In this document: positions 1 to 20,247 of the stretch, piece by piece
Layout: each line of letters begins with the position of its first letter
Numbering within the stretch: position 1 is the stretch's first letter
NCBI RefSeq assembly: GCF_003952525.1
Contig: NZ_CP034451.1
Span: forward strand, 4,092,001 to 4,156,000
Source: Mesorhizobium sp. M3A.F.Ca.ET.080.04.2.1
Lineage (GTDB): Bacteria; Pseudomonadota; Alphaproteobacteria; Rhizobiales; Rhizobiaceae
Reading direction: 5' to 3'
Length of the DNA stretch: 64,000 nucleotides
The notes under the pieces: model-generated
The model's input: the letters and a program-made list of their open reading frames with translations, nothing else
Told to the model about the DNA's origin: nothing
Databases searched by the model: none
Translations under genes and position numbers: made by a program

Positions 1-298
1 GCCCTGGAGACCGACGCGAGCCTTCGACGACGGCAGCAAGGTCTATATTGAGTTCCCTCGTCGCATAGATCAGGGCGAGGCGCCACCACTCTTCATCGTC
101 GGCGCAGATGGGAGCAGCGAGCTCGTCAACTATCGCGTGCGCGGCAACTATTACATCGTCGATCGGCTCTTCGCCGCGGCCGAACTTCGCCTCGGCACCA
201 AGCGGCAGCAGGTGATCCGCATCAGCAGGATTGACGGCAGGCAACCGCAACGGCGGATCTCGCTCTTTCGCGGCAGCCGGCGAGGTGAGGGCTCATGA
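1..298 (+). CDS. trbG: TrbG conjugal transfer protein, C-terminal part
   Basis: The window opens inside this gene; the frame starting at base 2 is open to a TGA at 296-298. The roughly 98 visible residues match the C-terminal beta-sandwich of TrbG/VirB9 proteins, with the motif YIEFPRRI near the start and NYRVRGNYYIVDRLF in the middle. TrbG is a periplasmic/outer-membrane core component of P-type type IV secretion systems and binds the TrbI/VirB10 channel protein. The stop overlaps the trbI start as ATGA, so the two genes are translationally coupled. Confidence 0.85.
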   Translation, partial: PWRPTRAFDDGSKVYIEFPRRIDQGEAPPLFIVGADGSSELVNYRVRGNYYIVDRLFAAAELRLGTKRQQVIRISRIDGRQPQRRISLFRGSRRGEGS

Positions 299-1509
299 TC
301 GAAAATTCCCGCTCTGGCATCCCGCCGAAACTGGATCCCGAGGAACTGCAGCTTCGGGCCTCTCCCCGCCGCGTGGTGCGGTTCAGGCGCGGTGTGATCA
401 TCGCTATCGCAGCGCTCGGATCCGGCGCTGTCTTCGGCGTTACCATGATCGCCCTCCAGGGGCCGGCCCTTCGCATCAGGGATCAGGCGGAAGATCTCTA
501 CAACACTGAGCGCAAACCAACCGCCGAGGGACTCGATACGCTTCCCCATGACTATTCCGGCATGAAGCCAAAGCCTCCCGTCCTTGGGCTACCTTTGCCG
601 GGCGACCTCGGCCGCCCCATCCTCGAGCGGCAGCGCCAGCTCGGCATCGTGCCGGGCCAAGACATCTCGGCCGAGGAGCAGCGTCTAGCGCAGCAGGCGA
701 TCGAAGCGCGTGAATCGCGGGTGCTTTTCCGCGTCGAAAATCGAGCTCAACAGACAGATGTCGGAGAGAGCGTGCAAACTGCTCAGCATCCATTTGAGGC
801 GCTTCCCCAATCCGAAGCAGGACGCGCGTCAGCCTCGGTGGCGGCGGCGGAAGGCGACCAGAACAATCAGCAGCGAAAGCTTGATTTTCTCAGCCAGCGG
901 AGCACTGGCGGGATCTACAATCCGCATGCGCTTCAGACGCCGATCTCGCCATATCAACTGATGGCTGGCAGCGTGATTGCCGCCAGCCTGATCACCGGCA
1001 TCAATTCCGATTTGCCGGGCCTTGTCGTCGCGCAAGTCACCGAAAATGTGCACGACACGGTCACGGGCAACATATTGCTGATTCCGCAGGGCTCACGTCT
1101 TATCGGCGTCTACGACAGCGTCGTCGCGTTCGGGCAAAAGCGAGCGCTGCTGGTCTGGCAGCGCATTCTGCTGCCCGACGGCTCGTCGGCCGAAATCGAC
1201 AATCTGCCCGCGAGCGACACCGCCGGCTACGCAGGGCTGGAAGACAAAGTCGATTTCCACACTTGGCAGATGATCAAGGGAGTGGCGCTTGCCACATTGC
1301 TCGGTGTCGGCACAGAATTCAGCCTCGGCGAAAACGAGAGCGATCTGGTCAAGGCGATCCGGGAATCAGCCCAGCAGAACGCCAGTCGAGCCGGCCAGCG
1401 CATCACCGAAAAAAACCTCAATATCCAGCCCACCATCGTCGTCCGCCCAGGTTGGCCACTGCGCGTCATCGTGCACAAGGACATCGTGCTGCGGCCATAC
1501 GCCAGTTGA
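295..1509 (+). CDS. trbI: TrbI conjugal transfer protein (VirB10-like)
   Basis: This 404-residue protein has the TrbI/VirB10 layout: a short cytoplasmic N-terminus, one membrane segment at about residues 35-60, a proline-rich periplasmic stretch, and a C-terminal beta-barrel domain from about 210 to 400 containing GNILLIPQGSRLIGVYDS. VirB10-family proteins span both membranes of the type IV secretion channel. It overlaps trbG by 4 bp and is followed after 12 bp by a DUF2274 gene, the usual end of rhizobial trb operons. It looks intact. Confidence 0.92.
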   Translation: MIENSRSGIPPKLDPEELQLRASPRRVVRFRRGVIIAIAALGSGAVFGVTMIALQGPALRIRDQAEDLYNTERKPTAEGLDTLPHDYSGMKPKPPVLGLPLPGDLGRPILERQRQLGIVPGQDISAEEQRLAQQAIEARESRVLFRVENRAQQTDVGESVQTAQHPFEALPQSEAGRASASVAAAEGDQNNQQRKLDFLSQRSTGGIYNPHALQTPISPYQLMAGSVIAASLITGINSDLPGLVVAQVTENVHDTVTGNILLIPQGSRLIGVYDSVVAFGQKRALLVWQRILLPDGSSAEIDNLPASDTAGYAGLEDKVDFHTWQMIKGVALATLLGVGTEFSLGENESDLVKAIRESAQQNASRAGQRITEKNLNIQPTIVVRPGWPLRVIVHKDIVLRPYAS

Positions 1510-1521
1510 GCAGGAGTTATC

Positions 1522-1764
1522 ATGGCTGACCTGAAACTTGGAAAACTTCCGGACCGAACAGCTTCGAAGATCACCATTACCGTCAGCGCGGAGCTGAGCC
1601 AAACACTCAAGGAGTATGCTGCACTTTACCGTCAGACCTATGGTCAGTCTGAAACCGTGGCAGAACTCATCCCTTTCATGCTGGCGGCGTTTCTGGAAGG
1701 CGACCGAGCCTTTGCCAGGGCCAGAAAAGAACGTCTGCCGACGGAGCTTGCCGGAAAATCGTGA
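1522..1764 (+). CDS. DUF2274 family protein of the trb operon
   Basis: This 80-residue protein begins MADLKLGKLPDRTASKIT and matches the small DUF2274 proteins that commonly follow trbI in rhizobial conjugation operons. An AGGAG ribosome binding site lies 7 bases before the ATG. The protein has no signal peptide or membrane segment, and no function is established for the family. The position suggests a role in or regulation of conjugation; that is inference. Confidence 0.85.
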   Translation: MADLKLGKLPDRTASKITITVSAELSQTLKEYAALYRQTYGQSETVAELIPFMLAAFLEGDRAFARARKERLPTELAGKS

Positions 1765-1853
1765 CTCCTCCGCTAGGGCAGCTGGAACATTGCCTAGCTG
1801 TCGCGACCTACCTGCTCCTCGCGAAGCATAGGATCAAACCCCTTGGAATGTAG
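1761..1853 (+). pseudogene. Truncated copy of the small conserved gene found again at 18.4 kb
   Basis: A GTG overlapping the DUF2274 stop (GTGA) opens a 30-codon frame ending in TAG at 1851-1853. It contains LEHCLAVATYLLL, which matches LECCLAVAAYLVI in the protein encoded at 18399-18743. In the longer protein this motif is followed by about 60 further residues, absent here, so this copy is a stub. Its coupling to DUF2274 suggests it was once the next gene of the trb operon. The 146 bp from here to the hemN stop hold nothing recognisable. Confidence 0.6.
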
Positions 1854-1999
1854 GTATGCGCAAGAGAGGATGTGGAAGGAGATACCGCGCAACAGCCTAA
1901 GTTTGCATTTTCGATTTGATGCGGTAGTCGCCTATGAGCGGTCAAAACGAACGCAGCTGGTTCGCCGATCGACCAAACGGCGAGCGCACTGTGCTTTGC

Positions 2000-3349
2000 T
2001 CAGACCGCCACCGAGTGCCTCGCCGTTCCCCCTTTGAAATATGTATCGAACTTGGCCGCGATGGTTCGAATGAAGGGGCGACTTTCAGTCCGTACGAGGA
2101 AACTGTCACCATCGAATTCAAGCGCTCGGGCAGGATCGTGGAGTGCGATGGACCTCGAGCGATGAAGGAGCTGCTCGCCGGCTTTGCCGAACCGCTCCAC
2201 CAGATCGACTGCCGAGAAGGCAAAATCACACATCAGCCGCTCGATGATCCAGCCACGGACGCGATCGTCGTCGGAAAGGGCAACGCCGCGGACGGCAGCC
2301 AACCCGCCATCCGCAACCATGCGCCCGTACCCGGCAGTCGAAGCCATGTTTTGCACGTAGCCTTGGCGAAAACGACCGATGGACGAAGGGCCAAGTCCGA
2401 TCAGTGTCGGGCAGCGATCCTCAGTGTAGCCCTGAAAATTGCGATGCAAAACCCCTGCGCGGGCCGCTATGGCCAGCGCATCGTCGGGCTTCGCGAAATG
2501 ATCGAGTCCTATTGCCTCATATCCCTTGGCGACAATTGCCCGCGCCGCGAGTTGAGATTGGGCGAAACGCTCAGTGGGACTCGGCAGCCATGCCTCGTCG
2601 ATCATCGTCTGATGCTTCTTGAACCAGGGCACATGTGCGTAGCCGAACAGGGCCATCCGGTCTGGCTCCAAGGTCAGTGCCTGCGCCACCGTGGAACAGA
2701 TCGTCTCGCGTGTCTGATTCGGGAGCCCGTAGAGCAGGTCCAGATTGACCGATTCGACGCCCCGCGAACGAACCCCGTCGACGACTGCCTTGGTCTGCAA
2801 AAAACTCTGCTCACGATTAATTGCTTTTTGCACTTGCGGATCGAAATCCTGCACGCCGAGGCTCGCCCGGGTTACGCCGATTTGAGCAAGTGCATCAAGG
2901 CGCGCCTTGTCCATGTCGTTGGTTTCGATTTCGATGCTGACCGTAGCATCCGGGAGAAAGTCGAAGCTGTCCCGCAAGGCCGCTCCAAGAGCAACCATAT
3001 CATCGGGCCTCAGAATAGTTGGCGAACCGCCACCGAAGTGGATTGCACGGACATGTGCCTTGCCGCTCAGCAGACCGGCAATCGTGACGATTTCGGCATT
3101 CAGCGAGCGCAGATAAGCGGCCACCGGCTCATATTGGTGCGTCTGCTTGGTGTGGCAGGCGCAGAACCAGCAGAGCTTGTCGCAGTAAGGAATGTGCAGG
3201 TACAGCGAGATTTCGTCGCCGCTTTCCAGCGTCTCCAACCAGCCACGGTAAATGGCAGCATCGATCCCCGAATGGAAATGCGGCGCCGTCGGATAGCTGG
3301 TGTAGCGTGGGACGTTCTCGCTGAGTTTGACAGCTATTTCCGATTGCAT
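2000..3349 (-). CDS. hemN: Oxygen-independent coproporphyrinogen III dehydrogenase
   Basis: This radical-SAM enzyme (449 residues from the chosen start) converts coproporphyrinogen III to protoporphyrinogen IX without oxygen and so supplies heme under microaerobic conditions. The iron-sulfur motif is CDKLCWFC (Cys56, Cys60, Cys63), preceded by YLHIPY, and GGGSPT follows at about 95. The C-terminus (GTARHSVAV) is complete. The frame extends 28 codons upstream to 3433, but the ATG at 3349 starts the conserved region (ENVPRYTSYPTAPHF). The later start also leaves the FNR-like box at 3404-3417 upstream of the gene. HemN supplies heme for the cbb3 oxidase encoded nearby. Confidence 0.93.
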   Translation of the reverse strand: MQSEIAVKLSENVPRYTSYPTAPHFHSGIDAAIYRGWLETLESGDEISLYLHIPYCDKLCWFCACHTKQTHQYEPVAAYLRSLNAEIVTIAGLLSGKAHVRAIHFGGGSPTILRPDDMVALGAALRDSFDFLPDATVSIEIETNDMDKARLDALAQIGVTRASLGVQDFDPQVQKAINREQSFLQTKAVVDGVRSRGVESVNLDLLYGLPNQTRETICSTVAQALTLEPDRMALFGYAHVPWFKKHQTMIDEAWLPSPTERFAQSQLAARAIVAKGYEAIGLDHFAKPDDALAIAARAGVLHRNFQGYTEDRCPTLIGLGPSSIGRFRQGYVQNMASTAGYGRMVADGGLAAVRGVALSDDDRVRGWIIERLMCDFAFSAVDLVERFGKAGEQLLHRSRSIALHDPARALEFDGDSFLVRTESRPFIRTIAAKFDTYFKGGTARHSVAV

Positions 3350-3403
3350 CTCGCGTTCACCGTGTTGCCCGCCGGAACACTGCACGCATCGCTGAAGCAG
3401 ACC

Positions 3404-3417
3404 CTGATCTCGATCAG
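3404..3417. promoter_or_regulatory. FNR/FixK-like box between hemN and fnrN
   Basis: CTGATCTCGATCAG is a perfect inverted repeat (CTGAT, 4 bp, ATCAG) that differs from the consensus anaerobox TTGAT-N4-ATCAA only at the outermost base of each arm. It lies 54 bp upstream of the chosen hemN start and 84 bp upstream of the fnrN start, in the divergent promoter region, so it could serve both. Binding is inferred. Confidence 0.6.
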
Positions 3418-3501
3418 CCGCGCTCATGGACAAACCGCCGCAGGATTTCTCTACCCTGGATGGGTATCCTGCCGGCAGTTAGGATCGGGTAAGGCGAACG
3501 C

Positions 3502-4245
3502 ATGACCTTTCGGCAAGACATTCATAGTTCCGGCATTCCTGTTCTTTGCTTCCCTTGCGAGGCACGGCGTCGCGGTGTCTGCGGTGCGCTCGATCCAGAC
3601 AATTTGGTTGGGCTCGCCAAGACTTGCTCGCGTCGCCGGATCGAGTCAGGAATGGAGTTGACCGGCGAGGCACAGAACGTCGACAGCTACTCCAACGTGC
3701 TTTCAGGCGTTGTAAAGCTATCAAAGAGCCTGTCGGATGGGCGCCAGCAGATCGTCGGTCTCCAGTTTGCACCGGATTTTCTGGGACGTCCTTTCAAGGT
3801 GGAAAGCTCGATCAATGCGGAAGCGGCAACAGCAGTCACGCTGTGTTCGTTTCCGCGAGCGGCCGTCGAACGGATGATGAAGGCGTCACGGGAATTCGAG
3901 CATCGCCTGCTCAAACAGACGCTGAATGAACTCGATGAGGCGCGCGAGTGGATGGTGACGCTGGGGCGCAAGACAGCTCCGGAAAAGGTAGCGACTTTTC
4001 TCCTCATGATGGCCCGGAATATCGATTCCAGTCTCGATGCGGCTTCCGGGTCGGCGTCCTTCGATCTGCCGCTGACGCGTGTCGAAATGTCTGATTTCCT
4101 TGGAATCACCAACGAGACCGTGAGCCGCCAACTGACGCGATTGCGGGCTGACGGGGTGATTCGGATTGAGAACGCACGCCATGTGACGGTGGACAGCATA
4201 AGCCGTCTGGAGAAGCGCTGTGGCGGCGGACGCGAGCGGCCCTAA
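3502..4245 (+). CDS. fnrN: Fnr/FixK-family oxygen-responsive transcription regulator (FnrN type)
   Basis: This is a 247-residue Crp-Fnr regulator. An N-terminal cysteine cluster (Cys16, Cys19, Cys27) plus Cys115 in the sensor domain matches the four [4Fe-4S] ligands of Fnr/FnrN; FixK proteins usually lack them, so direct oxygen sensing is expected. The C-terminal helix-turn-helix at about 190-215 contains ETVSRQLTRL, whose E-SR pattern recognises TTGAT half-sites. It diverges from hemN and lies 496 bp upstream of fixN, each with an FNR-like box, so it probably activates both. The specific FnrN call rests on the cysteines. Confidence 0.88.
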   Translation: MTFRQDIHSSGIPVLCFPCEARRRGVCGALDPDNLVGLAKTCSRRRIESGMELTGEAQNVDSYSNVLSGVVKLSKSLSDGRQQIVGLQFAPDFLGRPFKVESSINAEAATAVTLCSFPRAAVERMMKASREFEHRLLKQTLNELDEAREWMVTLGRKTAPEKVATFLLMMARNIDSSLDAASGSASFDLPLTRVEMSDFLGITNETVSRQLTRLRADGVIRIENARHVTVDSISRLEKRCGGGRERP

Positions 4246-4607: not shown

Positions 4608-4653
4608 TCATTCGCCACCTGCTGATTGCGCCGCCGACACAAAATCTTGCGGC

Positions 4654-4667
4654 CTGACATAGATCAG
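4654..4667. promoter_or_regulatory. FNR/FixK-like box upstream of fixN
   Basis: CTGACATAGATCAG resembles the FNR/FixK consensus TTGAT-N4-ATCAA, with a TGAC left half as in several known rhizobial boxes. Its centre is 81.5 bp upstream of the fixN ATG. If bound at -41.5, transcription would start near 4702, leaving a 40-base leader. The regulator is probably the adjacent FnrN or a FixK elsewhere in the genome. Confidence 0.65.
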
Positions 4668-4741: not shown

Positions 4742-6361
4742 ATGAAATTCGGCACAGAGATCGTCCTTCTAAGCGTGTTCGCTTTTGCGGCCCTGGTGGC
4801 CGCCGGCTTCGGCGTGGATGAACCTTTCCGCCGACACATGTGGGTGTTGTTCTTCGCAGTGGCTGGTTTCACTGCGATCCTGTTGCGCAACACGGAGTTC
4901 AAGCCAGCAGCTCCGATTGACCCATCCGCTTACATGGATGGTCCGATCCGCTACGGCGCGATCGCCACCGTGTTCTGGGGTGTCGTCGGCATGCTGGTCG
5001 GCGTGGTGATCGCGCTGCAGCTCGCCTACCCCGATCTCAACATCCAGCCCTGGTTCAATTTCGGTCGTTTGCGGCCGTTGCACACATCCGGTGTCGTCTT
5101 CGCCTTCGGCGGCAACGCGCTGCTTTGCACGTCTCTGTATGTCGTGCAGCGCACCTGCCGCGCCCGCCTCTTCGGCCGTGATCTGGCCTGGTTCGTCTTC
5201 TGGGGCTACCAGCTGTTCATCGTCATGGCCGCGACCGGCTACCTGCTCGGCATCACCGAGGGCCGCGAGTACGCCGAACCCGAATGGTATGTGGATGTCT
5301 GGCTGACCATCGTCTGGGTCGCCTACCTCATTCTGTTCCTTGGCACGATCCTGAAGCGCAAGGAACCGCATATCTACGTGGCCAACTGGTTCTACCTGTC
5401 GTTCATCGTCACCATCGCGATGCTGCATGTGGTCAACAACCTGTCCATACCAGTCTCGTTCCTGGGCTCCAAGAGCTACTCCGCCTTTTCAGGGGTCCAG
5501 GACGCCTTGACGCAATGGTGGTACGGCCACAACGCGGTCGGCTTCTTTCTCACCGCCGGCTTCCTCGGCATGATGTATTATTTCGTGCCCAAGCAGGCGA
5601 ACCGGCCAGTCTATTCGTACCGGCTGTCGATCGTCCATTTCTGGGCGATCATCTTTCTCTACATCTGGGCCGGGCCGCATCACCTGCACTACACCGCCTT
5701 GCCCGATTGGGCGCAGACGCTCGGCATGGTGTTCTCGATCATGCTGTGGATGCCGTCCTGGGGCGGCATGATCAACGGCCTGATGACGCTGTCCGGCGCC
5801 TGGGACAAGCTGCGCACCGATCCGATCATACGCATGATGGTGATGGCCGTCGCCTTCTATGGCATGTCGACCTTCGAAGGCCCCATCATGGCGATCCGGG
5901 CGGTCAATTCGCTGTCGCATTATACCGACTGGACGATCGGCCACGTCCATTCGGGCGCGCTCGGCTGGGTTGGCATGATCTCGTTCGGCGCAATCTACTA
6001 CATGGTGCCGAAGCTCTGGAACCGGCAACGGCTCTACTCGTTGCGGCTGGTCACCTGGCATTTCTGGCTGGCGACACTTGGTATCGTTGTCTACGCCGCG
6101 GTGATGTGGGTATCCGGCGTCATGCAGGGCCTGATGTGGCGCGAATACGACGAGCAGGGCTTCCTGGTCTACTCCTTCGCCGAGACCGTCGCCGCCATGC
6201 ACCCCTACTATGTCATGCGCGCCATCGGTGGGGCCATGTACCTCTCCGGCGCGCTGATCATGGCCTGGAACATCACCAGGACCATCCTCGGCCACCAGCG
6301 CGAGGAGGAGCCGATGCCGAGCCCCGTCGCCATCCGACCTGCGCGATCAGGAGCCAGGTAA
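4742..6361 (+). CDS. fixN: cbb3-type cytochrome c oxidase subunit I
   Basis: FixN/CcoN is the catalytic heme-copper subunit of the high-affinity cbb3 terminal oxidase in the inner membrane. The protein has 539 residues with about twelve or more membrane segments. Visible metal ligands are the low-spin heme His114 (RPLHTSG), Cu-B ligands His263 (WYGHNAV) and His313/His314 (GPHHLHY), and heme ligands His401/His403 (GHVHSGALG). Length and ligands are normal, so it should be active. It is the first gene of fixNOQP, with an FNR-like box upstream, and its TAA overlaps the fixO ATG as TAATG. Confidence 0.96.
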
Positions 6362-7092
6362 TGGGCTTGATGGACAAACACGCAATCATCGAGAAGAACG
6401 CCACGCTTCTTCTCGTTGGCTCGCTGCTCGTGGTGACGGTCGGCGGCATCGTCGAGATCGCGCCTCTCTTCTATCTCGACAATACGATCGAGAAGGTGGA
6501 AGGCATGCGCCCCTATTCGCCGCTCGAACTTGTCGGGCGCAACATCTATATGCGCGAGGGCTGCTACCTCTGTCATAGCCAGATGATCAGGCCGTTCCGC
6601 GACGAAGTTGAGCGCTATGGCCACTACAGCCTAGCTGCCGAGTCCATGTACGATCACCCCTTCCAGTGGGGATCGAAGCGCACCGGGCCGGATCTCGCCA
6701 GAGTTGGCGACCGCTACTCGAATGCATGGCATGTCGCGCATCTTACCGACCCGCGCTCGGTGGTGCCGGAATCGATCATGCCGAGCTATGGGTTCCTGAA
6801 AGACACGCCGATCGACGTGAAGGATTTCTCAACGCATCTGGTCGCCAACAGGCTTGTAGCCGTCCCTTACACCGATGACATGATCGTCCACGCCAATGCG
6901 GATCTGGCGGCGCAGGCCGATCCCAATGCCGACACATCAGGCCTTGAGGCGCGTTACCCAAAAGCCAAGATCGGCGACTTCGACGGCAACCCGCAACAGG
7001 TCACCGAAATGGATGCCCTGCTCGCCTACCTGCAGATGCTTGGCACACTGGTCGACTTCAAAAATTACGACGAAGCCGCCGGCTACCGCTGA
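6361..7092 (+). CDS. fixO: cbb3-type cytochrome c oxidase monoheme subunit II
   Basis: FixO/CcoO is a membrane-anchored monoheme cytochrome c that passes electrons to FixN. The protein has 243 residues with an N-terminal membrane anchor at about 15-38 and the heme-binding motif CYLCH (Cys68, Cys71, His72). A methionine in IMPSYGFL near 139 is the likely axial ligand. The start is the ATG overlapping the fixN stop. The same frame stays open much further upstream through fixN, but that part is not this protein. Confidence 0.95.
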
Positions 7093-7103: not shown

Positions 7104-7253
7104 ATGACCTACAATTTGATGCGGGCGTTTGCCGACAGCTGGGGCCTGGTTGCGATGGCGCTGTTCTTCGTGGGGTGCATCGCCTTTGCCCTACGCCCCG
7201 GCAGCCGAAGGCTGGCCGACGAAGCGGCCCGCATTCCGCTCGAGGACGAGTGA
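7104..7253 (+). CDS. fixQ: cbb3-type cytochrome c oxidase small subunit
   Basis: This is a 49-residue protein starting MTYNLMRAFADSWGLVAM, with one membrane helix at about 14-30 followed by a short charged tail. The size, single helix and position between fixO and fixP are diagnostic of FixQ/CcoQ, which helps stabilise the cbb3 complex. It begins 11 bp after fixO, behind a GAGGAG ribosome binding site, and ends 2 bp before fixP. Confidence 0.93.
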   Translation: MTYNLMRAFADSWGLVAMALFFVGCIAFALRPGSRRLADEAARIPLEDE

Positions 7254-7255
7254 TC

Positions 7256-8119
7256 ATGAGCGACGAGCATATCGATGAAATCTCTGGCGTCTCGACCACC
7301 GGCCACGAATGGGATGGCATCCGGGAGCTGAACAACCCGCTTCCCAGATGGTGGGTTATCACCTTTTACGTCACCATTGTCTGGGCGATAGGCTACACCA
7401 TCGCCTATCCAGCATGGCCTCTGTTGCACTCGGCGACGAAGGGTGTGCTCGGCTATTCCAGCCGCAACGAGGTCAGGAACGAGCTGACTGCGGCTGAGGC
7501 CGCCAAGGGCAAATATATCTCGGCGGTGGAGTCCAAGAGCGTCTCGGAGATCTCCGCGGACGACGGCCTGCGCGAATTCGCAATCGCCGCCGGTGGCGCC
7601 GCTTTCAAGGTCAATTGCGTACAATGTCACGGCTCCGGCGCCCAAGGTTCCAAGGGCTTTCCCAATCTCAACGACGACGACTGGCTATGGGGCGGCAAGG
7701 CCGAGCAGATCCAGCAGACGATTACGCACGGCATCCGCTTCGCATCCGATCCGGACACGCGCCTGTCGGAAATGCCGGCCTTCGGCGACATCATTACCGC
7801 CGACCAGATCGCACAAGTCAGCGCCTACGTGGCCAGCCTTTCCGGCAAGGTCCGCGATGCAAGTCTGATCCAACCCGGCGCCAAGGTCTTTGCCGAGAAC
7901 TGCGTCGCCTGTCACGGCGACAATGCAAAAGGCAACAGGGAATTCGGCGCCCCCGACCTGACCGATGCGATCTGGCTCTATGGATCCGGTGAGACAGCCA
8001 TCGCCGCACAGGTCCGTGCGCCAAAACAGGGCGTCATGCCGGCCTGGGTTGGCCGTCTCGGCGAGATCAAGGTCAAGGAACTTGCAGTTTATGTCCATTC
8101 GCTTGGCGGCGGAGAATAG
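7256..8119 (+). CDS. fixP: cbb3-type cytochrome c oxidase diheme subunit III
   Basis: FixP/CcoP is a diheme cytochrome c that accepts electrons from the bc1 complex or soluble cytochromes. The protein has 287 residues: a conserved N-terminal stretch (IRELNNPLPRWW, 22-33), one membrane helix at about 34-57, and two cytochrome c domains with CVQCH (Cys121, Cys124, His125) and CVACH (Cys216, Cys219, His220). It is the last gene of fixNOQP. A strong hairpin follows 41 bp downstream. Confidence 0.96.
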   Translation: MSDEHIDEISGVSTTGHEWDGIRELNNPLPRWWVITFYVTIVWAIGYTIAYPAWPLLHSATKGVLGYSSRNEVRNELTAAEAAKGKYISAVESKSVSEISADDGLREFAIAAGGAAFKVNCVQCHGSGAQGSKGFPNLNDDDWLWGGKAEQIQQTITHGIRFASDPDTRLSEMPAFGDIITADQIAQVSAYVASLSGKVRDASLIQPGAKVFAENCVACHGDNAKGNREFGAPDLTDAIWLYGSGETAIAAQVRAPKQGVMPAWVGRLGEIKVKELAVYVHSLGGGE

Positions 8120-9845: not shown

Positions 9846-10339
9846 CTGCCAATGTACAAAAGCCTCGTGAATTCACCGGCAGGCACATGCTGGTCATCAT
9901 CCTGGCCTTTTTCGGCGTGGTCATCGCAGTCAATCTGACCATGGCAACGCTCGCCAGCACAAGCTGGACTGGCCTCGTCGTCGAAAACACCTATGTGGCG
10001 AGCCAGCAATTCAACAAGAAGGCCGAGGAAGGACGGGCGCAGGCAGCACTTGGCTGGACCGGCAAGCTGACCATCGCATGGGGCGAAGTTCGCTATGGCC
10101 TCGCCGACGTCGCCGGCAAGCCGGTTCCCTTGCACGGCGTCAAGGTGCTGTTTCGCCATCCCGCGTACGAGAAGGAGGACAAGTCGGTCACCCTCGCACC
10201 CGCCTCGGGCCAGGAATTCGCAGCCCAGCACATGCCGAAGGACGGCGTCTGGATTGTCGAAGTCGACGCCGACGCCGGTCTGGACAAACCGTATCGCGAC
10301 GTCCGCCGGATCATGATTTCCAATGGAGCGCTGCAATGA
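9842..10339 (+). CDS. fixH: cbb3 oxidase assembly protein FixH
   Basis: FixH/CcoH is a small membrane-anchored protein needed for cbb3 assembly and stability. The protein has 165 residues: one N-terminal membrane helix at about 16-38 and a periplasmic domain with the conserved GWTGKL near residue 64. It overlaps fixG and fixI by ATGA at both ends, so it is made in a tightly coupled operon. Confidence 0.93.
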   Translation: MTANVQKPREFTGRHMLVIILAFFGVVIAVNLTMATLASTSWTGLVVENTYVASQQFNKKAEEGRAQAALGWTGKLTIAWGEVRYGLADVAGKPVPLHGVKVLFRHPAYEKEDKSVTLAPASGQEFAAQHMPKDGVWIVEVDADAGLDKPYRDVRRIMISNGALQ

Positions 10340-12609
10340 GTTGTTGTGCACCGGGCGCCGAAATGGCGCTTGATCTGGTCAACACCGGATCGGTCCTGCC
10401 GTCCAGCCAGGAGATCAGGCTGGCGAGCCGATCGCTTGGCGATGATCTTCACCAGACCGATCTTTCAGTACCGACGGTTCATTGCGCAGGCTGCATCCAG
10501 ACGATCGAGACGGCGCTGGGAAAGCTCGATCGCGTCGAGAGCGCCCGCGTCAACCTGTCGACGAAACGGGTCTCTGTCCGGTGGCGTGGTGACGAGGTCC
10601 CACCGTTCGTCGTCGCGCTTGGGCGGCTAGGCTACCAGGCGCATCTCTTCCCTTCCGAGGTCGGCGACAAGGACAGGACGTTATCGGATTTGATCCGCGC
10701 GGTCGCGGTTGCCGGCTTTGCGGCGGGCAACATCATGCTGCTTTCGGTCTCGGTCTGGTCCGGCGCCGAAGGTGCTACCCGCGACCTGTTTCACTGGGTC
10801 TCGGCGCTGATCGCCATTCCTGCCCTCGCCTTCGCCGGCGGCATCTTCTTCCGTTCGGCCTGGAATGCTTTGCGCCATGGCCGCATGAATATGGACGTGC
10901 CGATCGCGGTCGGTGTTTCGCTCGCCTACGCCATGAGCCTCTACGAGACGATCAACCATGGCGATCACGCCTATTTTGACGCGTCGGTATCGCTGCTGTT
11001 CTTCCTGTTGATCGGCCGCACGTTGGATCACGTGATGCGCGAACGTGCCCGGACCGCTGTGAAAGGCCTGTCCCAGTTGGCCGCACATGGCGCCATGGTG
11101 CTGCGCAGCGACGGCGCGCGCGACTATTTGCCGGTCGGCGAGATCGAACCAGGCATGCGGTTGTTGATCGCAGCCGGTGAGAGGATCCCCGTCGACGGCA
11201 AGATCATCCAGGGAACGTCGGATCTCGACTGCTCGCTGGCCTCAGGCGAAAGCACGCCGAAAAACGTGGCGCCGGGCGAAGCAGTTCAGGCCGGCGTGCT
11301 CAATCTTACCGGCCCGCTGACGATTGAGGCGACAGCCGCCGCGAAGGATTCGTTTCTGGCGGAAATGGTTCGTCTTATGGAAGCCGCAGAGGGCGGCCGC
11401 GCGCATTATCGCCGGATCGCCGATCGCGTTTCAGCGCTCTATGCCCCGGTGGTTCATCTCACAGCCTTCGCGACGTTCCTTGGCTGGATGGCGGTGACCG
11501 GCGACTGGCACCGGGCGATAACCATCGCCATTGCCGTTCTGATCATCACCTGCCCGTGCGCGCTCGGCCTCGCCGTACCGATCGTTCAGGTGGTCGCCGC
11601 GCGGCGCCTGTTTGAGAACGGCATCATGGTAAAGGACGGTTCTGCCATGGAGCGCCTGGCGACGATTGATACAGCGGTGTTCGACAAGACCGGAACGCTC
11701 ACGCTCGGCCAGCCCCGGCTGGTCAATGCATCGTCGATCGATCCGGCCATGCTGGCAGTCGCGGGAGACATGGCTACGCATTCCCGCCATCCTTTTTCAA
11801 AGGCCATAGCCGGTTTTGCCCATCCCGGCGGGCAGTACAAATTTGATGCCGTCACCGAGCATCCAGGGTTTGGAATCGAAGCCACTGGAGCCGGAAGCAC
11901 CTGGCGGCTAGGCCGACGCGGATGGGCTGGATGGAGAGCCCGGACCGGTGGTGAAGGCAAACATGGCGGAACCGTGCTGACAAAAGACGGGTTCATTGTC
12001 GCGACCTTCGATTTTGAGGACGCGCTGCGCGCAGACGCCAAGGCGGCGATCGGGCAATTGAGCCATGCCGGGGTGTCAGTGGAAATGCTGTCGGGCGATA
12101 CTGCGGGTGCCTGCGGTGAAGTCGCAGAAATGCTGGGTGTCAAGGACTTCGTTCCGTGCCTGCTGCCATCCGGCAAGGTCGAGCGCATCGAGACCCTGGC
12201 GAAAGACGGACACAAGGTTCTGATGGTTGGCGACGGCCTCAACGACACGCCGGCGCTCAGCGCGGCGCATGTCTCGATCGCTCCAGCTACCGCCGCCGAC
12301 ATTGGCCGCAATGCCGCCGACTTCGTATTCCTGCGCGAAAGCCTTCTGGCAGTGCCTCTCGCGCTGGACGTCTCGCGCAAGGCGGGACACCTGATCCGCC
12401 AGAACATCGCGATTGCGATCGTCTACAATGCGGTGGCAGTACCAATCGCCATCCTCGGGCACGCCACGCCTTTGTTAGCGGCGATTGCCATGTCTGCCTC
12501 ATCGGTGCTTGTTATTGGAAACGCATTGCGCTTGCACGGCTTCGGGGCGAATGCGACGCTGCAAGTTATTCAAAAAGTCGGACGCTCCGCAGTCAGCTAT
12601 TCGGCATAA
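10336..12609 (+). CDS. fixI: Copper-type P1B ATPase FixI/CcoI
   Basis: FixI is a P1B-type ATPase that exports copper for the Cu-B centre of cbb3 oxidase. From the ATG at 10336 it has 757 residues: a heavy-metal-binding domain with HCAGC (Cys50, Cys53), eight predicted membrane segments, the CPC copper motif at 406-408, the phosphorylated aspartate in DKTGTLT at 450, the HP motif (SRHPFSK) and GDGLNDTPALS near the C-terminus. All functional residues are present. A longer in-frame start at 10078 lies inside fixH and is not used. Confidence 0.95.
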   Translation: MSCCAPGAEMALDLVNTGSVLPSSQEIRLASRSLGDDLHQTDLSVPTVHCAGCIQTIETALGKLDRVESARVNLSTKRVSVRWRGDEVPPFVVALGRLGYQAHLFPSEVGDKDRTLSDLIRAVAVAGFAAGNIMLLSVSVWSGAEGATRDLFHWVSALIAIPALAFAGGIFFRSAWNALRHGRMNMDVPIAVGVSLAYAMSLYETINHGDHAYFDASVSLLFFLLIGRTLDHVMRERARTAVKGLSQLAAHGAMVLRSDGARDYLPVGEIEPGMRLLIAAGERIPVDGKIIQGTSDLDCSLASGESTPKNVAPGEAVQAGVLNLTGPLTIEATAAAKDSFLAEMVRLMEAAEGGRAHYRRIADRVSALYAPVVHLTAFATFLGWMAVTGDWHRAITIAIAVLIITCPCALGLAVPIVQVVAARRLFENGIMVKDGSAMERLATIDTAVFDKTGTLTLGQPRLVNASSIDPAMLAVAGDMATHSRHPFSKAIAGFAHPGGQYKFDAVTEHPGFGIEATGAGSTWRLGRRGWAGWRARTGGEGKHGGTVLTKDGFIVATFDFEDALRADAKAAIGQLSHAGVSVEMLSGDTAGACGEVAEMLGVKDFVPCLLPSGKVERIETLAKDGHKVLMVGDGLNDTPALSAAHVSIAPATAADIGRNAADFVFLRESLLAVPLALDVSRKAGHLIRQNIAIAIVYNAVAVPIAILGHATPLLAAIAMSASSVLVIGNALRLHGFGANATLQVIQKVGRSAVSYSA

Positions 12610-12614: not shown

Positions 12615-12770
12615 GTGACGACGTTGCTCTATCTCATACCAGTGGCCCTTTTTCTGGGTGCACTGGGTGTGTCCGGCTTCGTCTGGGCATTGCGAAGCGG
12701 TCAATACGAAGATCTCGACGGAGCCGCCGAGCGGATACTAATTGATCGGGACGACAAACCGGAACGCTGA
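12615..12770 (+). CDS. fixS: cbb3 oxidase assembly protein FixS
   Basis: This is a 51-residue protein starting at a GTG 5 bp after fixI. It has one membrane helix (about 3-26, with FLGALGVSGFVWALRSGQY) and an acidic tail. This is the signature of FixS/CcoS, required for cofactor insertion into cbb3 oxidase. The helix-GQ(Y/F)-ED pattern and its place at the end of fixGHIS make the call secure. Confidence 0.92.
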   Translation: MTTLLYLIPVALFLGALGVSGFVWALRSGQYEDLDGAAERILIDRDDKPER

Positions 12771-13340
12771 TTTCAATCCGCTGTGCATAAGATGCGCGGA
12801 TCGCGCTCGTCAGTCGAGCCGGCTCGGTCGGGAACAAGCTGTCCATGCTCCATGCTCCATGCTCCATGACCATCTTGACCTAAGCTGCACACTACATTTG
12901 TGAAAAGCCTCTGTCGTGCGAAGGACTGCCTCCCATTGCACCCAGTATGAGGCGGCTGATGCCACGAGAGTACCTCGCGTGGCCGGACGAGAGCTTGGCC
13001 ATGTGCGCACGGGTTCCAAAGTGGAACGTCACGGTCGATCACCTGACCGTGAACCGCCAGTGCCGATTGGTCATGTCTGGCTGATCCAGATCAGGGTCAT
13101 ACTCATCGGTGTGTTCTATTGACCAGTCTTCGACGGAGAAATGCATGACTTACGGAAAGATTGGTCGTCATTATCAGCACCTTCACGGTTCTGGGTTTTC
13201 TGTCGTGTGGTCGGCCATGCCTTGTGCTTACGGCGCAGCCATTAGCTGACCGGCGTCGTGTGTATCTCGCTTGCTGGCTGACCATCCGCGTGGCTGCGCG
13301 GACACGGGGGCCGATCAACAGCTTTCGCCTTTGATGGGTT
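12771..13340. other. Degraded region downstream of fixS
   Basis: No intact gene was found in these 570 bp. They hold a short heptanucleotide repeat (12843-12868), a 27-codon frame at 13001-13084 whose first third resembles the start of the frame at 13729, and a stretch (13244-13301) repeated imperfectly at 13778-13834. The pattern suggests remnants of duplicated sequence. Confidence 0.5.
12843..12868. repeat. Heptanucleotide tandem repeat
   Basis: CCATGCT occurs three times in a row, followed by a partial fourth unit (CCATG). It lies 72 bp downstream of fixS in non-coding sequence. Its function is unknown; it is a candidate slippage tract. Confidence 0.8.
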
Positions 13341-14010: not shown

Positions 14011-15189
14011 ATGGGCTCTGACGATAATTTTGACATCGTTGTCGTTGGAGCCGGCCCGGTCGGCCTTTCGTTCGCTGCGTCGCTTGCCCAAAGCGAACTC
14101 AAGGTGGCAGTTGTTGAACAGAACACATTCGATAGTCTGGCGAATCCGGCTTTCGATGGTCGCGAAATCGCGCTGACCAACGCTTCGATCAGAACCCTTC
14201 GCGAGCTCGGCGCCTGGGATGTCATCCCGGCTTCGGACAAATCAGCACTTCAAGGCGCGCGCGTGCTCAACGGCTCGAGCGCATTCGCTCTTCGTTTCGA
14301 TCCTCCCAGCAACTCTGGAGAACCGCTGGGGGTTTTGGTTCCAAATTGCCGGATCCGCGAGGCGCTGTTCAAAATCGTCCGCTTGCAGGATCGCGCCCGG
14401 CTGTTGTGCGGCCACTCGGTCGTCGATGCAACAAACAGCCAAGAAGGAGCAGTCGTAACGCTCTCTAATGGCGCGCGTTTAACTGCTCGGCTGGTTGTTG
14501 CCGCGGATTCGCGTTTGTCCGCCACGCGTGATCTGCTAGGCATCGGCGCCGATATCAACCGGCTTGGCCACTCGATGCTGATTTGCCGAGTGAGGCACGA
14601 GCGCGCCCACCACCAGATCGCCATCGAATGGTTCGATCACCATCAGACGATAGCGATGTTGCCCCTCGCGGAGGGCATGTCGTCGCTGCTGCTCACATTG
14701 CGCTCAAACGAGGCCTATAGACTGCTTGCCTTCGATGATGATTTGTTCCTGTCGGAGTTGACGAAACGGTGTCGAGGGCGCCTTGGAAAAATGACCTTGG
14801 CAAGCAAGCGCCACACCTATCCGCTGGTCACGACCTGGGCGCACAAATTCCGGGCGCCGAGCGCCGCACTCATCGGCGACGCTGCCATCGGCATGCACCC
14901 GGTGACCGCTCACGGATTCAACATCGGTCTCAGCAGCCAGAAGCAACTCGCCCGTGGAATCATGACTGCGTGCCGCGACGGCCGCAATGTTGGCGACCCC
15001 GACATGCTGCATATATACGAAAGGCGGCTGCGCCTGTCGGCGGCGCCGCTCTACCATGCAACGAACATATTGATTGGACTCTACTCCAGAGACCACCTGG
15101 CGGCACGGCTTGCAAGGCATCTGGGGCTTCGCTTTGCCCAACATGTTCCCCTTGTCCGGCATGGGATATCGGCGGAGCTCCAGCGGTGA
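14011..15189 (+). CDS. ubiM: UbiH/UbiM-family FAD-dependent ubiquinone hydroxylase
   Basis: This is a 392-residue flavoprotein monooxygenase of the UbiH/F/Coq6 group. It has an N-terminal dinucleotide motif (VVGAGPVGLSFAASLAQ), the FAD/NAD motif near residue 165 (VVAADSRLSATRDLLGI) and the C-terminal FAD motif GDAAIGMHPVTAHGFN. Such enzymes hydroxylate the aromatic ring of ubiquinone precursors; the sequence looks closest to the UbiM branch, which acts on several ring positions in other proteobacteria. The frame is open upstream to an ATG at 13729, but the conserved protein starts at MGSDDNFDIVVVGAG. Its place beside fix genes suggests a link to quinone supply at low oxygen. Confidence 0.75.
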   Translation: MGSDDNFDIVVVGAGPVGLSFAASLAQSELKVAVVEQNTFDSLANPAFDGREIALTNASIRTLRELGAWDVIPASDKSALQGARVLNGSSAFALRFDPPSNSGEPLGVLVPNCRIREALFKIVRLQDRARLLCGHSVVDATNSQEGAVVTLSNGARLTARLVVAADSRLSATRDLLGIGADINRLGHSMLICRVRHERAHHQIAIEWFDHHQTIAMLPLAEGMSSLLLTLRSNEAYRLLAFDDDLFLSELTKRCRGRLGKMTLASKRHTYPLVTTWAHKFRAPSAALIGDAAIGMHPVTAHGFNIGLSSQKQLARGIMTACRDGRNVGDPDMLHIYERRLRLSAAPLYHATNILIGLYSRDHLAARLARHLGLRFAQHVPLVRHGISAELQR

Positions 15190-15443: not shown

Positions 15444-17266
15444 ATGCCGATAAGCATTGTGCTGTCCGGGCTGATTTTGACCGTGCAGGCCCTTTCCGGG
15501 AACGGTCTTGCTGGCGCGGCCTGGTTTTCGGTCGTTAATGCGATAAATGCCGCCCGCCTTGCACTCGCCCGTCATCAGCTGAAGGAACCCGGAGTCCAGG
15601 ATGATCTGACACGGGTTTGGCTGCGGCTTCGCTGGTTTGGCAGGCTTGCTCTTCTGGCGGGATTCACCTGGTCATTCCTTGCCATCCTAACGGCTGGATA
15701 CACGACGTCTCAAGCATCGCTGCATCTAATAATTCTGGCGGGCATTTCAGCTGGCGCGGTCACGTACGGCAGCTCATATGCTGCGGCAGCGATATGCTTC
15801 ATCACACCGCCACTCCTCATTGCCGCCGCATGTTTGCTGACGAAGGGAGCCCCGGAAAACTACATTCTGGCTTTTGCCGTCCTGCTTTTCGAGGGCGGCC
15901 TGGTTCGATCCTCGTTCGTTGGACAAGCGCGCTTCCGTGACGCGAGCCGCCTGAGACATCAAGCCGAGCGGCTTGCCGCGGAAATGGAGCGCAATTCCAG
16001 GGAGGACCATCTTACCGCGCTCCTCAACAGGCGGGGCCTCGAACATGCAATCGATCAGTTTGAGAACACCGATGGACCCTTTGTGGCCATGCTGATTGAT
16101 CTGGACGGGTTCAAATCTGTCAACGGTACCTACGGTCACAGAACGGGTGACGAGCTGCTTGCCAGGATCGCCCGCCGAATAGAGGAAGAAGCACCGGAGG
16201 GCTCAACGCTCGCCCGCATCGGTGGGGATGAATTCGTGCTGGTTTTTTCTTCGCGAAAGAATTCTCCTTCTCCCACCAATCTCGCGTCCAATCTCATAGC
16301 CAAGCTTGCTCGCCCCTATCCTGGGATCGCATCCGTCCGCATTGGAGCGTCTATAGGAATCTACTTGGCTGAAAACCCCGGACTGACGGAAATGTTGTTG
16401 CGGGCCGACATCGCCCTTTACACAGCTAAGCGCCGCGGCAGGAATGAATTTTGTCTGTTCGGTGCCGAGCTAGCCCGGGAACTGCAACGCCGCCAGTCAA
16501 TCGAACGCGATCTTCATTCGGCGATAACGATGAGAAGCTTGGTCGCTTGGTTTCAGCCAATCGTAAGACTCGAAACTGAAGCGTCGTCGGTTTTGAAGCC
16601 TTGCTAAGATGGTCTCACCCGCTTCACGGTCCCATTTCTCCGCCCGAGATCATGACAGCGGCACGCGAAACTGGAATGCTTCAGCTGCTAACTCAAACGG
16701 TATTCGCCGACTGTTGCGCTCTTATCGAGGGCTTGGTCAAAGCTGACCGTCGTGATGTTCGTGTGGCGATGAATGTTTCACCGCGCGAGTTGGAAGCTGG
16801 CGATATTGACGAGATGATTCTTAATGGTCTGGCGGCAAAAGACCTCCCTGCAACGATGTTCGACATCGAGATTACCGAAGAAGCCCCAGTGGATCCGGAC
16901 AGAGTGGATGAAAAGCTCGGCCAGCTTTCACATGCTGGCATTTCTATCGCGCTCGAGGACTTCGGCACCGGTTTTTCGACGTTGGCATCGCTCAAGGACA
17001 GTCGGATCAGGAAAGTGAAAATAGATCAGGGCTTCATTCGCGGCTTAGCCAAGTCCCGGGAGAATCGGCTGCTTGTCAAAGCGGTGATTGACCTTGGTAG
17101 GACGCTCGGGATCGAGGTCATGGCCGAGGGCGTTGAAACAGAGGCAGATCGGCAAACTCTGTACAAGCTTGGCTGCAGAACCGCGCAGGGCTTCCTGTTC
17201 TCTAAGGCAGTGCCTCTCCATTTGGCACTTGATTCGGTAGTAAAAGAGCACGCGAAGGAGTTGTGA
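15444..17266 (+). pseudogene. Membrane GGDEF-EAL cyclic-di-GMP protein split by a frameshift
   Basis: The first frame (15444-16607) encodes about five membrane helices (residues 1-165), a GGDEF domain with intact RIGGDEFVLVF, and the start of an EAL domain up to WFQPIVRLETEA. The EAL domain then continues in another frame, which contains FEALLRW at the junction, DFGTGFSTLASL and MAEGVETE, and ends at 17266. Restoring one base near 16578 (reading ACTGGAAGC for ACTGAAGC) gives an unbroken GGDEF-EAL protein with VGFEALLRW. As read, the product would be a GGDEF protein without its phosphodiesterase half. The frame is also open upstream to 15282 without a standard start. Confidence 0.88.
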
Positions 17267-18396: not shown

Positions 18397-18398
18397 GT

Positions 18399-18743
18399 TT
18401 GTATCCCATGCCACATGCTGGCCGTTTGCCTAGTTCGGAAGCCCTCGAGAGGCGTTGCTCGTCTTGGTATGGCGTCGCCCCTTTTTCCGATCCATCGGCC
18501 ACGGAGCTAGAATGCTGTCTAGCTGTTGCCGCCTACTTGGTCATCCGGCATGGAGATGCCTATATACCGACCTTCGAAAGGCTGGAATACGAGGTCGAAC
18601 AAATGCGGCGGAAGCTCGGAAATCGCGAGCGAGCGCAGCGCGTGCTGGCCACGCTCAACCTAAATGGCTCGGACAGCTGGAGCCGTGAGGTTGGTTCTCA
18701 AGGCCTGGATGGCGCCGCAATCACATTCGCCCGGGCGGGGTAA
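18399..18743 (+). CDS. Small conserved island protein, full copy of the 1.8 kb stub
   Basis: The frame has 114 codons from a TTG (an ATG follows at 18408). The convincing part begins at about residue 32 with PSATELECCLAVAAYLVIRH, then a charged helical segment (ERLEYEVEQMRRKLGNRERA). It matches the truncated frame at 1761-1853, which is coupled to the trb operon, so this small family seems tied to conjugation modules. The function is unknown. It converges on the integrase gene and overlaps its 3' end by 23 bp. Confidence 0.55.
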   Translation: MYPMPHAGRLPSSEALERRCSSWYGVAPFSDPSATELECCLAVAAYLVIRHGDAYIPTFERLEYEVEQMRRKLGNRERAQRVLATLNLNGSDSWSREVGSQGLDGAAITFARAG

Positions 18744-20043
18744 AAGCGATTTTTTGAAGCCACTCGCGCTTTTGCGCTAACGAAGGTCCCGCGCCGTATT
18801 TGGGCCGGATCCATTTGTGGCCCATCAGAGAAGCAATTACCTTCTCCGGCGCCTCAACTGCCGTCAGCCGGTCCTCGAAAGTGTGTCGCAGGCTATAAAG
18901 ACTATGCTCGGAAGTCGGCAGAAGTTCCTTGCTGGCGAGCACCTTGTTGACGAGCGCTGAAAGTGACGCGGCCTTGTCGCGATAACGAGGAAAGCCGTCC
19001 GGATGGAGCTTGATGGCTGCAAGTGCGCCGCCAACCAAGGGAATGTCACGGGCTGAATGACCGGTCTTCAAGCGACGGCCATTGGGGCGCACCCGCACAT
19101 GCGGGATTTCTTGATCGAGGTGGATTGTTTCGGTGGTGAGGTTTGCCGCTTCAGAAAGCCTGAGTCCGGTATCGGCAATCACATAGATTAGATGGCGGGC
19201 TTCGTCATTGAGTCCGTCGAGCGCGCCTTCAGCGAGTATCTTCTCCTGAATGAACTCCGCTGTGAACGCAGCGCGTTGCCCGGGGACGGCGCCGGAAAGA
19301 CGCAGGTTTCGAAAAACCGGCTCCAGCTTGAGCTGGTGAGTCAGATCGACGACGCGCAGCATTTTCGAAACATGGCCGATGTCCTTGTTGGCCGTACCGA
19401 TATCAAGTCCATCCTCAACGATCCGCTTTTGCCACCACTCGCGGAACGCGATTGCGTCGTCCCGAGTGAGGCTTGCGATCTCCTTGTCGCCAATGACTCC
19501 AACCAGATTGGCAACTGCGCGCTTTTTGGGGTTACGCCATTTCTTGATTTGGTTAGGCGACATGGTCAGCAAGTTCTGTTGCTCGATCGTCTCGAATTCC
19601 TTGATAAGACCGCTCAGGCGGACCGCTGGCCGCTTCTCCCCACCCATGACGGCCGAGACGTCCTGCGCGTCCTCGATCGATTTTTTGTCGAGGAGCAGCT
19701 TGATACGGGCCATGAGTTCGTCGAGCGGCCCCGCTGCTAGTTCCTCGTTAGAGCGATAGGCCAATCCAAATGACCGCGCGCGCTTCCTCGCGGCTTCGAA
19801 ACGCAGCCCCGCCTCGGCGGATTGGCCTTCCCGCAGTCTACGCCAATACGCCTCCAGCCCCGCGCCGAGGCTTTGCACTGCATCTCGCGCCCGTACACCG
19901 CGGGGATCGTCAGCCACGGCGACGCCCGTGGAAATGCGTACTAGGCAGCGGCGATCAAACGCCGCGAATTCCTTCGGCACCCTGCGGACGAGATACCAGA
20001 TGCCTTCACGTTTATGCGGCTTTGGCGCTGCGGAACGTCGCAT
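18721..20043 (-). CDS. Tyrosine site-specific recombinase (integrase)
   Basis: This is a 440-residue phage-type integrase. The catalytic set is visible: Arg295 in ADTGLRLSEA, a lysine near 326, Arg386 in YSLRHTFE, His409 in LMGHKW and the nucleophile Tyr416 in RPKYG. The usual HxxR box has Tyr in place of His, a tolerated variant. The N-terminal part has an arm-binding/core-binding layout. It lies 115 bp from the 3' end of a tRNA-Ser gene, the expected integration site, and probably catalyses integration and excision of the island. It looks intact. Confidence 0.92.
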   Translation of the reverse strand: MRRSAAPKPHKREGIWYLVRRVPKEFAAFDRRCLVRISTGVAVADDPRGVRARDAVQSLGAGLEAYWRRLREGQSAEAGLRFEAARKRARSFGLAYRSNEELAAGPLDELMARIKLLLDKKSIEDAQDVSAVMGGEKRPAVRLSGLIKEFETIEQQNLLTMSPNQIKKWRNPKKRAVANLVGVIGDKEIASLTRDDAIAFREWWQKRIVEDGLDIGTANKDIGHVSKMLRVVDLTHQLKLEPVFRNLRLSGAVPGQRAAFTAEFIQEKILAEGALDGLNDEARHLIYVIADTGLRLSEAANLTTETIHLDQEIPHVRVRPNGRRLKTGHSARDIPLVGGALAAIKLHPDGFPRYRDKAASLSALVNKVLASKELLPTSEHSLYSLRHTFEDRLTAVEAPEKVIASLMGHKWIRPKYGAGPSLAQKREWLQKIAFTPPGRM

Positions 20044-20057
20044 TATCTTTCTCTAAT

Positions 20058-20079
20058 GTTACACAGTTTGTTACACAGT
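20058..20079. repeat. Direct repeat between integrase and tRNA-Ser
   Basis: GTTACACAGT occurs at 20058-20067 and again at 20070-20079, separated by TT, giving a 12-bp period. It lies just upstream of the integrase start and within 100 bp of the tRNA end. Spacing close to one helical turn suggests a protein-binding site such as an integrase arm site or a repressor operator. Confidence 0.6.
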
Positions 20080-20157
20080 CTAAGATAAGTTTCGCTTCGC
20101 GCTGGTCAAGCGCAACAAGGAAGCTTTTGAAAGGAAACGATTATTATGGAAGCTAAA

Positions 20158-20247
20158 TGGCGGAGAGGGAGGGATTCGAACCCCCGATACCCTTGCGAGT
20201 ATGCCGCATTTCGAGTGCGGTGCATTCGACCACTCTGCCACCTCTCC
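20158..20247 (-). tRNA. tRNA-Ser (anticodon CGA)
   Basis: The minus strand folds as a class II tRNA. The acceptor stem is GGAGAGG (20241-20247) with CCTCTCC (20162-20168), the anticodon is CGA (complement of 20211-20213), a long serine-type variable arm is present, GGTTCGAATC forms the T loop, and CCA is encoded at 20158-20160. The CCA end faces the integrase and the island, making the 3' part of this gene the likely attachment site. The gene itself is intact, as expected when the element carries the missing end. Confidence 0.95.

Follow-up and report, generated by a model that had tools for sequence, protein, structure and literature searches.

Does a respiratory oxidase that travels on a mobile symbiosis element answer to the oxygen regulators of its host, or does it bring its own? 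The question is raised by a 64,000-nucleotide stretch of Mesorhizobium sp. M3A.F.Ca.ET.080.04.2.1 (NZ_CP034451.1, positions 4,092,001 to 4,156,000; the window, to which coordinates refer unless given as genome positions), the left 20,178 bases of which are the right end of a ~397 kb mobile element in a single-contig genome of 6,165,597 bases. This end carries a hemN-fnrN-fixNOQP-GHIS block for a cbb3 oxidase, complete and with all frames open, and a second colinear hemN-fnrN-fixNOQPGHIS cluster, FixS included, lies in the chromosome at 2.19 Mb (L130). The element is a chickpea symbiosis integrative and conjugative element (ICE) of the ICEMcSym1192 kind, thus not new as an element; what appears to be new about it is the pair formed by the regulator FnrN and its DNA box. 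Our sequence comparisons make it quite probable that this ICE, seated in tRNA-Ser(CGA), has its cbb3 block driven by its own FnrN through CTGA-N6-TCAG boxes.

The two copies of the block differ in these boxes. At the FNR/anaerobox positions the island reads CTGA-N6-TCAG and the chromosomal copy TTGA-N6-TCAA. On the island, the gap between hemN and fnrN holds the diverged anaerobox CTGATCTCGATCAG (3404..3417), 98 bp ahead of the start codon of fnrN, and CTGACATAGATCAG (4654..4667) stands 88 bp ahead of that of fixN; the chromosomal counterparts are TTGATCCTGATCAA in the hemN/fnrN gap and TTGACTTAAATCAA at the fixN promoter. The places are equivalent, at 86 and 88 bp before fixN and in the hemN/fnrN gap. 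An anaerobox scan of the window found none at fixN, and the altered sites were visible only by comparison with the chromosomal copy. A further box, CTGATCCAGATCAG (13081..13094), follows fixS with no obvious target gene and is identical in 33/33 matching loci in alignments down to 82.6% identity, some of these loci being two pieces of one genome. Across the island the strict pattern CTGA[CT]N4[AG]TCAG occurs 7 times, against a mean of 1.6 and a maximum of 6 in 60 simulated sequences, and strict TTGA[CT]N4[AG]TCAA does not occur (simulated mean 1.2); the loose forms are within chance (CTGA 11, mean 6.5, maximum 14; TTGA 2, mean 4.7). Four of the seven strict CTGA sites are plausibly placed, namely those in the hemN/fnrN gap, before fixN, at 13081 and before a broken hemN-like open reading frame (ORF) at genome position 4035030, and the remaining three look like chance. 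The frameshifted ORF in question resembles, judged by eye, a second island hemN, and its CTGA box starts 73 bp before it (box and ORF together, genome 4034957-4035760).

The regulator differs as well. Island FnrN (3502..4245, forward strand; HTH_Crp_2 and cNMP_binding domains, N-terminal cysteines kept) has Asn at residue 204 (codon 4111-4113), and the chromosomal copy has Ile. To place this pair we read promoter and FnrN in 105 fix loci, 103 of them distinct (L157 = L225, L158 = L233), which comprise 92 of 128 near full-length FixN rows (all 24 at 98% or above and 68 of the 104 others) and 13 further loci. Symbiosis-borne fix clusters depart from the others at two points at once, with Asn or Ser in place of Ile at residue 204 and C:G in place of T:A as the outer pair of the box. 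The box begins 86-103 bp before the fixN start in 105/105 promoters; it reads CTGA..TCAG in 51/51 Asn and 5/5 Ser loci (56/56 distinct loci) and TTGA..TCAA in 39/39 distinct Ile loci, with no mixed fixN box among the three classes. L260, where the helix of FnrN is unread, has TTGA..TCAA, and six pieces without fnrN have CTGA in four cases and TTGA in two. The Phe form in L233 goes with an asymmetric box, TTGACCTGGATCAT. At fnrN's own promoter, the Asn class has 35 CTGA..TCAG and 14 CTGA..TCAA boxes, the remainder lying outside the piece, the Ser class has 5 CTGA..TCAG, and the Ile class has 37 TTGA..TCAA with 2 outside the piece. Plasmids behave in the same way: Mesorhizobium plasmid records with a match obey the residue-box rule in 11/11 cases, seven being Asn with CTGA and four Ile with TTGA, among the latter pMc1192 of CC1192. 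A Pararhizobium plasmid also has Ile with TTGA, and strain WSM4313 has a Ser-form FnrN.

The association can be read from either side. When loci were grouped by operator alone, 2 of 236 FnrN columns split the groups fully, residues 197 (Ser vs Ala) and 204. When promoters were grouped by FnrN residue, the outer box bases were C and G in 26/26 distinct Asn/Ser promoters and T and A in 39/39 distinct Ile promoters, while other positions drift; the box was the best conserved 14-base window in both sets (0.981 vs a median of 0.898 for Asn/Ser, 0.947 vs 0.716 for Ile). The iron-sulphur cysteine pattern CxxC-x7-C is present at the N-terminus of 35/35 distinct Asn/Ser-class proteins.

Residue 204 is also where a contact to the changed base would be expected. 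From its position in the helix, we take L195 of FixK2 to be the residue aligned with FnrN 204. The alignment places residue 204 against the residue preceding ETVSR in FixK2 (4i2o), and L195 is described as making a hydrophobic contact with a thymine (excerpt of PMC9104804). Across CRP/FNR proteins, residue 180 is described as correlating with base 3 of the motif (excerpt of PMC1274295), and base 3 is the one changed in the island box; we equate residue 204 with position 180 through the ETVSR helix. A survey of 50 genomes, in the part available to us, calls the base-contacting residues of FnrN and FixK highly conserved, without group-specific changes, and worked with one general Rhizobiales profile (PMC4999443). 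The Asn/Ser-CTGA class is an exception to that statement, and we found no report of such a class among the listings of open-licence PMC papers that our searches gave.

We propose that, at low oxygen, an iron-sulphur FnrN dimer would bind the CTGA-N6-TCAG boxes at the fixN promoter and in the hemN/fnrN gap and would thereby turn on the oxidase, heme synthesis and its own gene, and that host FixK and FnrN would bind these boxes poorly. The element would then read oxygen with its own sensor and depend less on the FixK/FnrN wiring of the host, making the trait portable. The most fruitful point of the first-pass annotation is its remark on the block's own oxygen sensor: the island FnrN and that of the host cluster fall into different operator classes. 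More broadly, and with slightly less than even confidence, we suggest from these comparisons that oxygen sensing on the symbiosis elements of Mesorhizobium, ICEs and plasmids alike, runs through a separate operator code: the recognition helix of FnrN and its boxes would have co-diverged once from the host version, and the oxidase and heme genes of the element would be switched by its own sensor and little by host FixK or FnrN. A mobile trait must function in unrelated hosts with differing regulators, and a sensor and operator that have changed together and travel together would be a clean natural example of a portable private circuit, for which the host's own version, present in the same cell, serves as control; the prediction is a simple one, setting a single base pair against one residue or two. 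If true, it would help explain why working symbionts arise after ICE transfer to diverse hosts, and why M. loti R7A can do without FixJ and FixK in symbiosis, its mutants in either still forming Fix+ nodules according to the excerpted report (PMC3538637). The dispensability of the pMc1192 plasmid with fixLJ and fixK in CC1192, as described in the part of PMC8090884 available to us, is likewise in line with a private circuit; both observations have other possible reasons.

Several observations weigh against this circuit being private. The half-canonical fnrN box CTGA..TCAA in 14/49 Asn-class loci makes cross-binding likely, and the island fixG promoter has no box within 3 mismatches where the chromosomal fixG promoter has one; together these weaken the case for full insulation. 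Residue 197 parts the classes as completely as 204. Some delta-proteobacterial HcpR proteins are described as pairing Ser at CRP position 180 with T, not C (excerpt of PMC1274295), and therefore there is no simple one-residue code. The symbiotic locus in G052, the sole Phe locus in the sample, has TTGA..TCAT at fixN. Finally, a tree was made from 188 FnrN rows, with Ile in 132, Asn in 48, Ser in 1, Phe in 2 and single rows with Val, Glu, Asp, Thr or an unread residue (FixK rows were not included); in it the Asn and Ser rows form one group nested among Ile-type FnrN, and Val, Glu, Asp and Phe forms at the usually-Ile residue (P0012, P0031, P0042, L233, P0046) branch beside it. Because the Asn/Ser class is one clade, repeated independent change cannot be claimed; the covariation may be a single event, with which any clade marker would covary.

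These points lend some strength to the best surviving alternative, which we consider unlikely, that this is an ordinary chickpea ICE with a redundant cbb3 duplicate, its CTGA boxes being read by the same FnrN/FixK pool and the residue change being a neutral clade marker. The complete chromosomal cluster, the single clade, the half-canonical boxes and the equal split at residue 197 all fit such a duplicate. On the other hand, the outer bases have stayed C/G in every Asn/Ser promoter and T/A in every Ile promoter despite drift elsewhere, and there are zero mixed fixN boxes among Asn, Ser and Ile loci. Very improbable, in our view, is an account in which another symbiosis-borne regulator binds the CTGA boxes and the FnrN change is incidental; the pairing of FnrN with the box does rest on sequence comparison, which leaves room for such a regulator, but the boxes occupy the same places as the chromosomal anaeroboxes, 86/88 bp before fixN and in the hemN/fnrN gap, and one of the changed residues is, for this family, described as facing that base (excerpts of PMC9104804 and PMC1274295). 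Least credible is the suggestion of the first-pass annotation that the block moved to supply recipients with a high-affinity respiration that they lacked, which is mostly refuted by counts: of the 84 genus genomes that lack this integrase, 16 are devoid of a near full-length FixN at 80% identity or above, but 68 have one, 14/15 integrase carriers have a second near full-length FixN, and fixNOQPGHIS copies beyond symbiosis elements are described for many rhizobia (excerpt of PMC9957244).

The reading of a symbiosis-borne circuit with its own operator code also relates to the distribution of nodulation genes. NodA is present in 68/99 genus genomes. Among the 92 loci tied to a genome, CTGA occurs in 54 nodA+ and 0 nodA- cases and TTGA in 28 nodA+ and 9 nodA- cases, the Phe locus being nodA+; by genome, 53 of 57 sampled nodA+ genomes have a CTGA locus, and nine nodA- genomes were sampled. 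Four nodA+ genomes (G009, G032, G052, G079) are without CTGA among their sampled loci, which rules out "CTGA means symbiosis" as an absolute rule; G032 and G079 have further, unsampled FixN rows. For the plasmids, nodA is present in 6/7 CTGA plasmids among the matches listed, which show seven of eight Mesorhizobium records counted, and at most one of pM0123d and the four TTGA plasmids has it.

The element itself is well delimited. The sole tRNA in the window is tRNA-Ser(CGA) (20158..20247, reverse strand, ARAGORN), the integration target. Its 3' end is a 21-bp attachment repeat (20158..20178) that recurs exactly at genome position 3715426, the left copy, at a spacing of 396,732 bp; this is the only further same-strand match of at least 16 bases to a 101-bp tRNA-end query in 464 kb. 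A 25-base tRNA-end probe hit, besides the tRNA, four sites at 2-3 mismatches, three of them tRNA-Ser-like, and missed the left copy because the repeat is only 21 bp long. A tyrosine recombinase, the intS of tRNA-Ser ICEs (18721..20043, reverse strand; Pfam Phage_integrase), is 99-100% identical in many named Mesorhizobium records, and its ORF lies 114 bp from the tRNA-Ser 3' end, which points at it. GC content is ~0.59 within the element and ~0.65 outside. nifH, nifD, nifK, bioB and nodA are encoded within it, as is a relaxase with a partial match to PF03432 (26.2 bits vs a cut-off of 24.6). The conjugation cluster enters the window only with its end, trbI (295..1509, forward strand; Pfam TrbI), adjoined by a DUF2274 protein (1522..1764, forward strand; PF10038). 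The first-pass annotation, which had proposed a mobile island at tRNA-Ser with a complete oxidase block near the integrase, thus stands on the 21-bp direct repeat and a patchy occurrence; the tRNA end that it saw facing the integrase and the second copy that it expected upstream are both there, every gene of its oxidase module is confirmed by family profiles, and of its trb genes only the end of the cluster, with trbI, is in the window, trbB and trbE lying upstream of it within the element.

The integrase is found at 99% identity or above in 15/99 genus genomes, this one included, and in six genomes without the ICE (G022, G025, G026, G033, G062, G089) the flanks lie only 1.6-5.2 kb apart, so the same genes are not at this locus in all strains. 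No empty site proved perfectly clean, the flanks being separated by 1.6-1.9 kb of other DNA even in the best cases (G022, G026 and G062). The fixN start lies 13,982-14,377 bp from the integrase in 14/15 carriers, the two being on different contigs in G092. In G047 the ICE measures 419,849 bp from left repeat to tRNA end, and in G080 it measures 410,452 bp. Alignment of our element with that of G047 covers 304,626 of 396,753 bases, with 99.98-99.99% identity over 115,877, 94,239 and 34,312 bp and 99.995% over 18,183 bp, these four long stretches reaching toward both ends; ~89 of the 132 kb in the middle (genome 3831303-3963070) have no match in G047 while the ends are ~99.99% identical, and an additional gap of 1.7 kb reflects a piece of G047 outside the compared sequence. 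The chromosome beside the ICE has 91.6% identity between the two over 1,098 bp. Near-identical ICEs in genomes with diverged chromosomes lend indirect support to excision and transfer, for which the integrase and the 21-bp core would let the ICE leave and re-enter tRNA-Ser(CGA), transfer having been shown for ICEMcSym1192. In L044 and L045 an integrase ~99% identical to that of the island stands beside tRNA-Ser(GGA), not (CGA); from such neighbourhoods, this integrase family seems to use two isoacceptor genes.

Around fnrN, the block begins with hemN for oxygen-independent coproporphyrinogen III oxidase (2000..3349, likely start 3349, open frame to 3433, reverse strand; TIGR00538 above cut-off). 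The remaining genes are on the forward strand: fixN (ccoN; 4742..6361, TIGR00780 above cut-off), fixO (ccoO; 6361..7092, TIGR00781 above cut-off), fixQ (7104..7253, Pfam FixQ), fixP (7256..8119, Pfam FixP_N and two cytochrome c stretches), fixG (8286..9845, Pfam FixG_C and Fer4_18), fixH (9842..10339, Pfam FixH), the P-type ATPase gene fixI (10336..12609, Pfam E1-E2_ATPase and HMA) and fixS (12615..12770), which encodes 51 residues from a GTG start 5 bases past the fixI stop and reaches 71.4 bits with Pfam FixS (cut-off 23.1). Beside the block, also on the forward strand, lie a ubiM-type ubiquinone hydroxylase gene (14011..15189, open frame from 13606; NF006593 above cut-off) and a GGDEF-EAL gene found by family scans (15444..17266), which in this ICE type is split into two frames, a pattern shared by L030-L033, L035, L042, L050, L127 and L128. 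Farther to the left in the genome, a 1217-residue ORF (4078045-4081698) matches part of NF041337, a model for Ulp1-family isopeptidase effectors, with a score far under the cut-off.

A swap of the integrase onto the fix backbone was also considered. In 9/9 ICESym-like loci with FixN at 98% or above and without this integrase, similarity to the window stops at exactly 17274, and beyond the equivalent point the nine have ~1.0 kb in common, which look like a remnant of an IS66-type transposase. In five relatives with integrases of 86-88% identity (L046, L047, L054, L055, L056), the interval from the trbI end to the integrase measures 0.5-2.7 kb and holds no fix block, and the three with a readable tRNA are all at tRNA-Ser(GGA). 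Identity to these relatives at four-fold sites is 51-56% for trbI (5 loci) and 46-59% for the integrase (4 loci). Such alike divergence would fit a joint descent of trb and integrase in which ICESyms alone have the fix block between the two, the sites being too diverged to decide.

How, then, does the island compare with known systems? ICEMcSym1192, an island known already from a 2016 genome note (PMC4901226), is described in PMC8090884 as an element of 418,907 bp flanked by the 20-bp repeats GAATCCCTCCCTCTCCGCCA at a Ser-tRNA, with transfer in laboratory and field; the excerpted PMC8627217 places monopartite Cicer ICESyms at tRNA-Ser, counts cbb3 fix genes among the ICESym-specific genes and notes that backbone and integration site are not strictly linked. 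The 21-bp repeat of our island includes the published core GAATCCCTCCCTCTCCGCCA at both ends, at the tRNA-Ser 3' end, and the tRNA-Ser site and the trb, nif, nod, bio and fix content are held in common with these elements. Its integrase is 99.5% identical to that of WSM4313, a published ICEMcSym1192 recipient (PMC8090884, in part), and up to 100% to others. It differs in size, 396.7 kb against 418.9 kb (same excerpt), and in its split GGDEF-EAL gene, which aligns whole over ~600 residues in ICEMcSym1192-type loci, is one open frame of 606 residues in L139, and in nine other ICESym loci is in one piece in 5/9 and in two pieces in 4/9. It also has fixS, reported absent from ICEMcSym1192 in the text available to us (PMC8090884). 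The same fixS frame is present in L037, L039 and L040, that is WSM4313, WSM4311 and WSM4306, which the same text names as carrying the entire ICEMcSym1192, and an annotation omission is the likely explanation.

The regulator resembles other FnrN proteins in its cysteines, its ETVSR helix and its place between hemN and fixN, and the Asn/Ser class differs from them at residue 204. An anaerobox of TTGAT-N4-ATCAA or near it is described in the literature (PMC7888657, in the part available) and is also what the chromosomal copy has; on the island, CTGA-N6-TCAG takes the place of the canonical TTGA-N6-TCAA box at the promoters of both fnrN and fixN. The nearest precedent is the co-evolution of helix and motif in HcpR, DNR and NnrR, which involves the same protein position (CRP 180) and the same base of the half-site. 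The states given there, in the portion of PMC1274295 available to us, pair Arg with G3 and other residues with T3, and C3 with Asn or Ser is not among them. Unlike in those comparisons, here the two states coexist in one genome.

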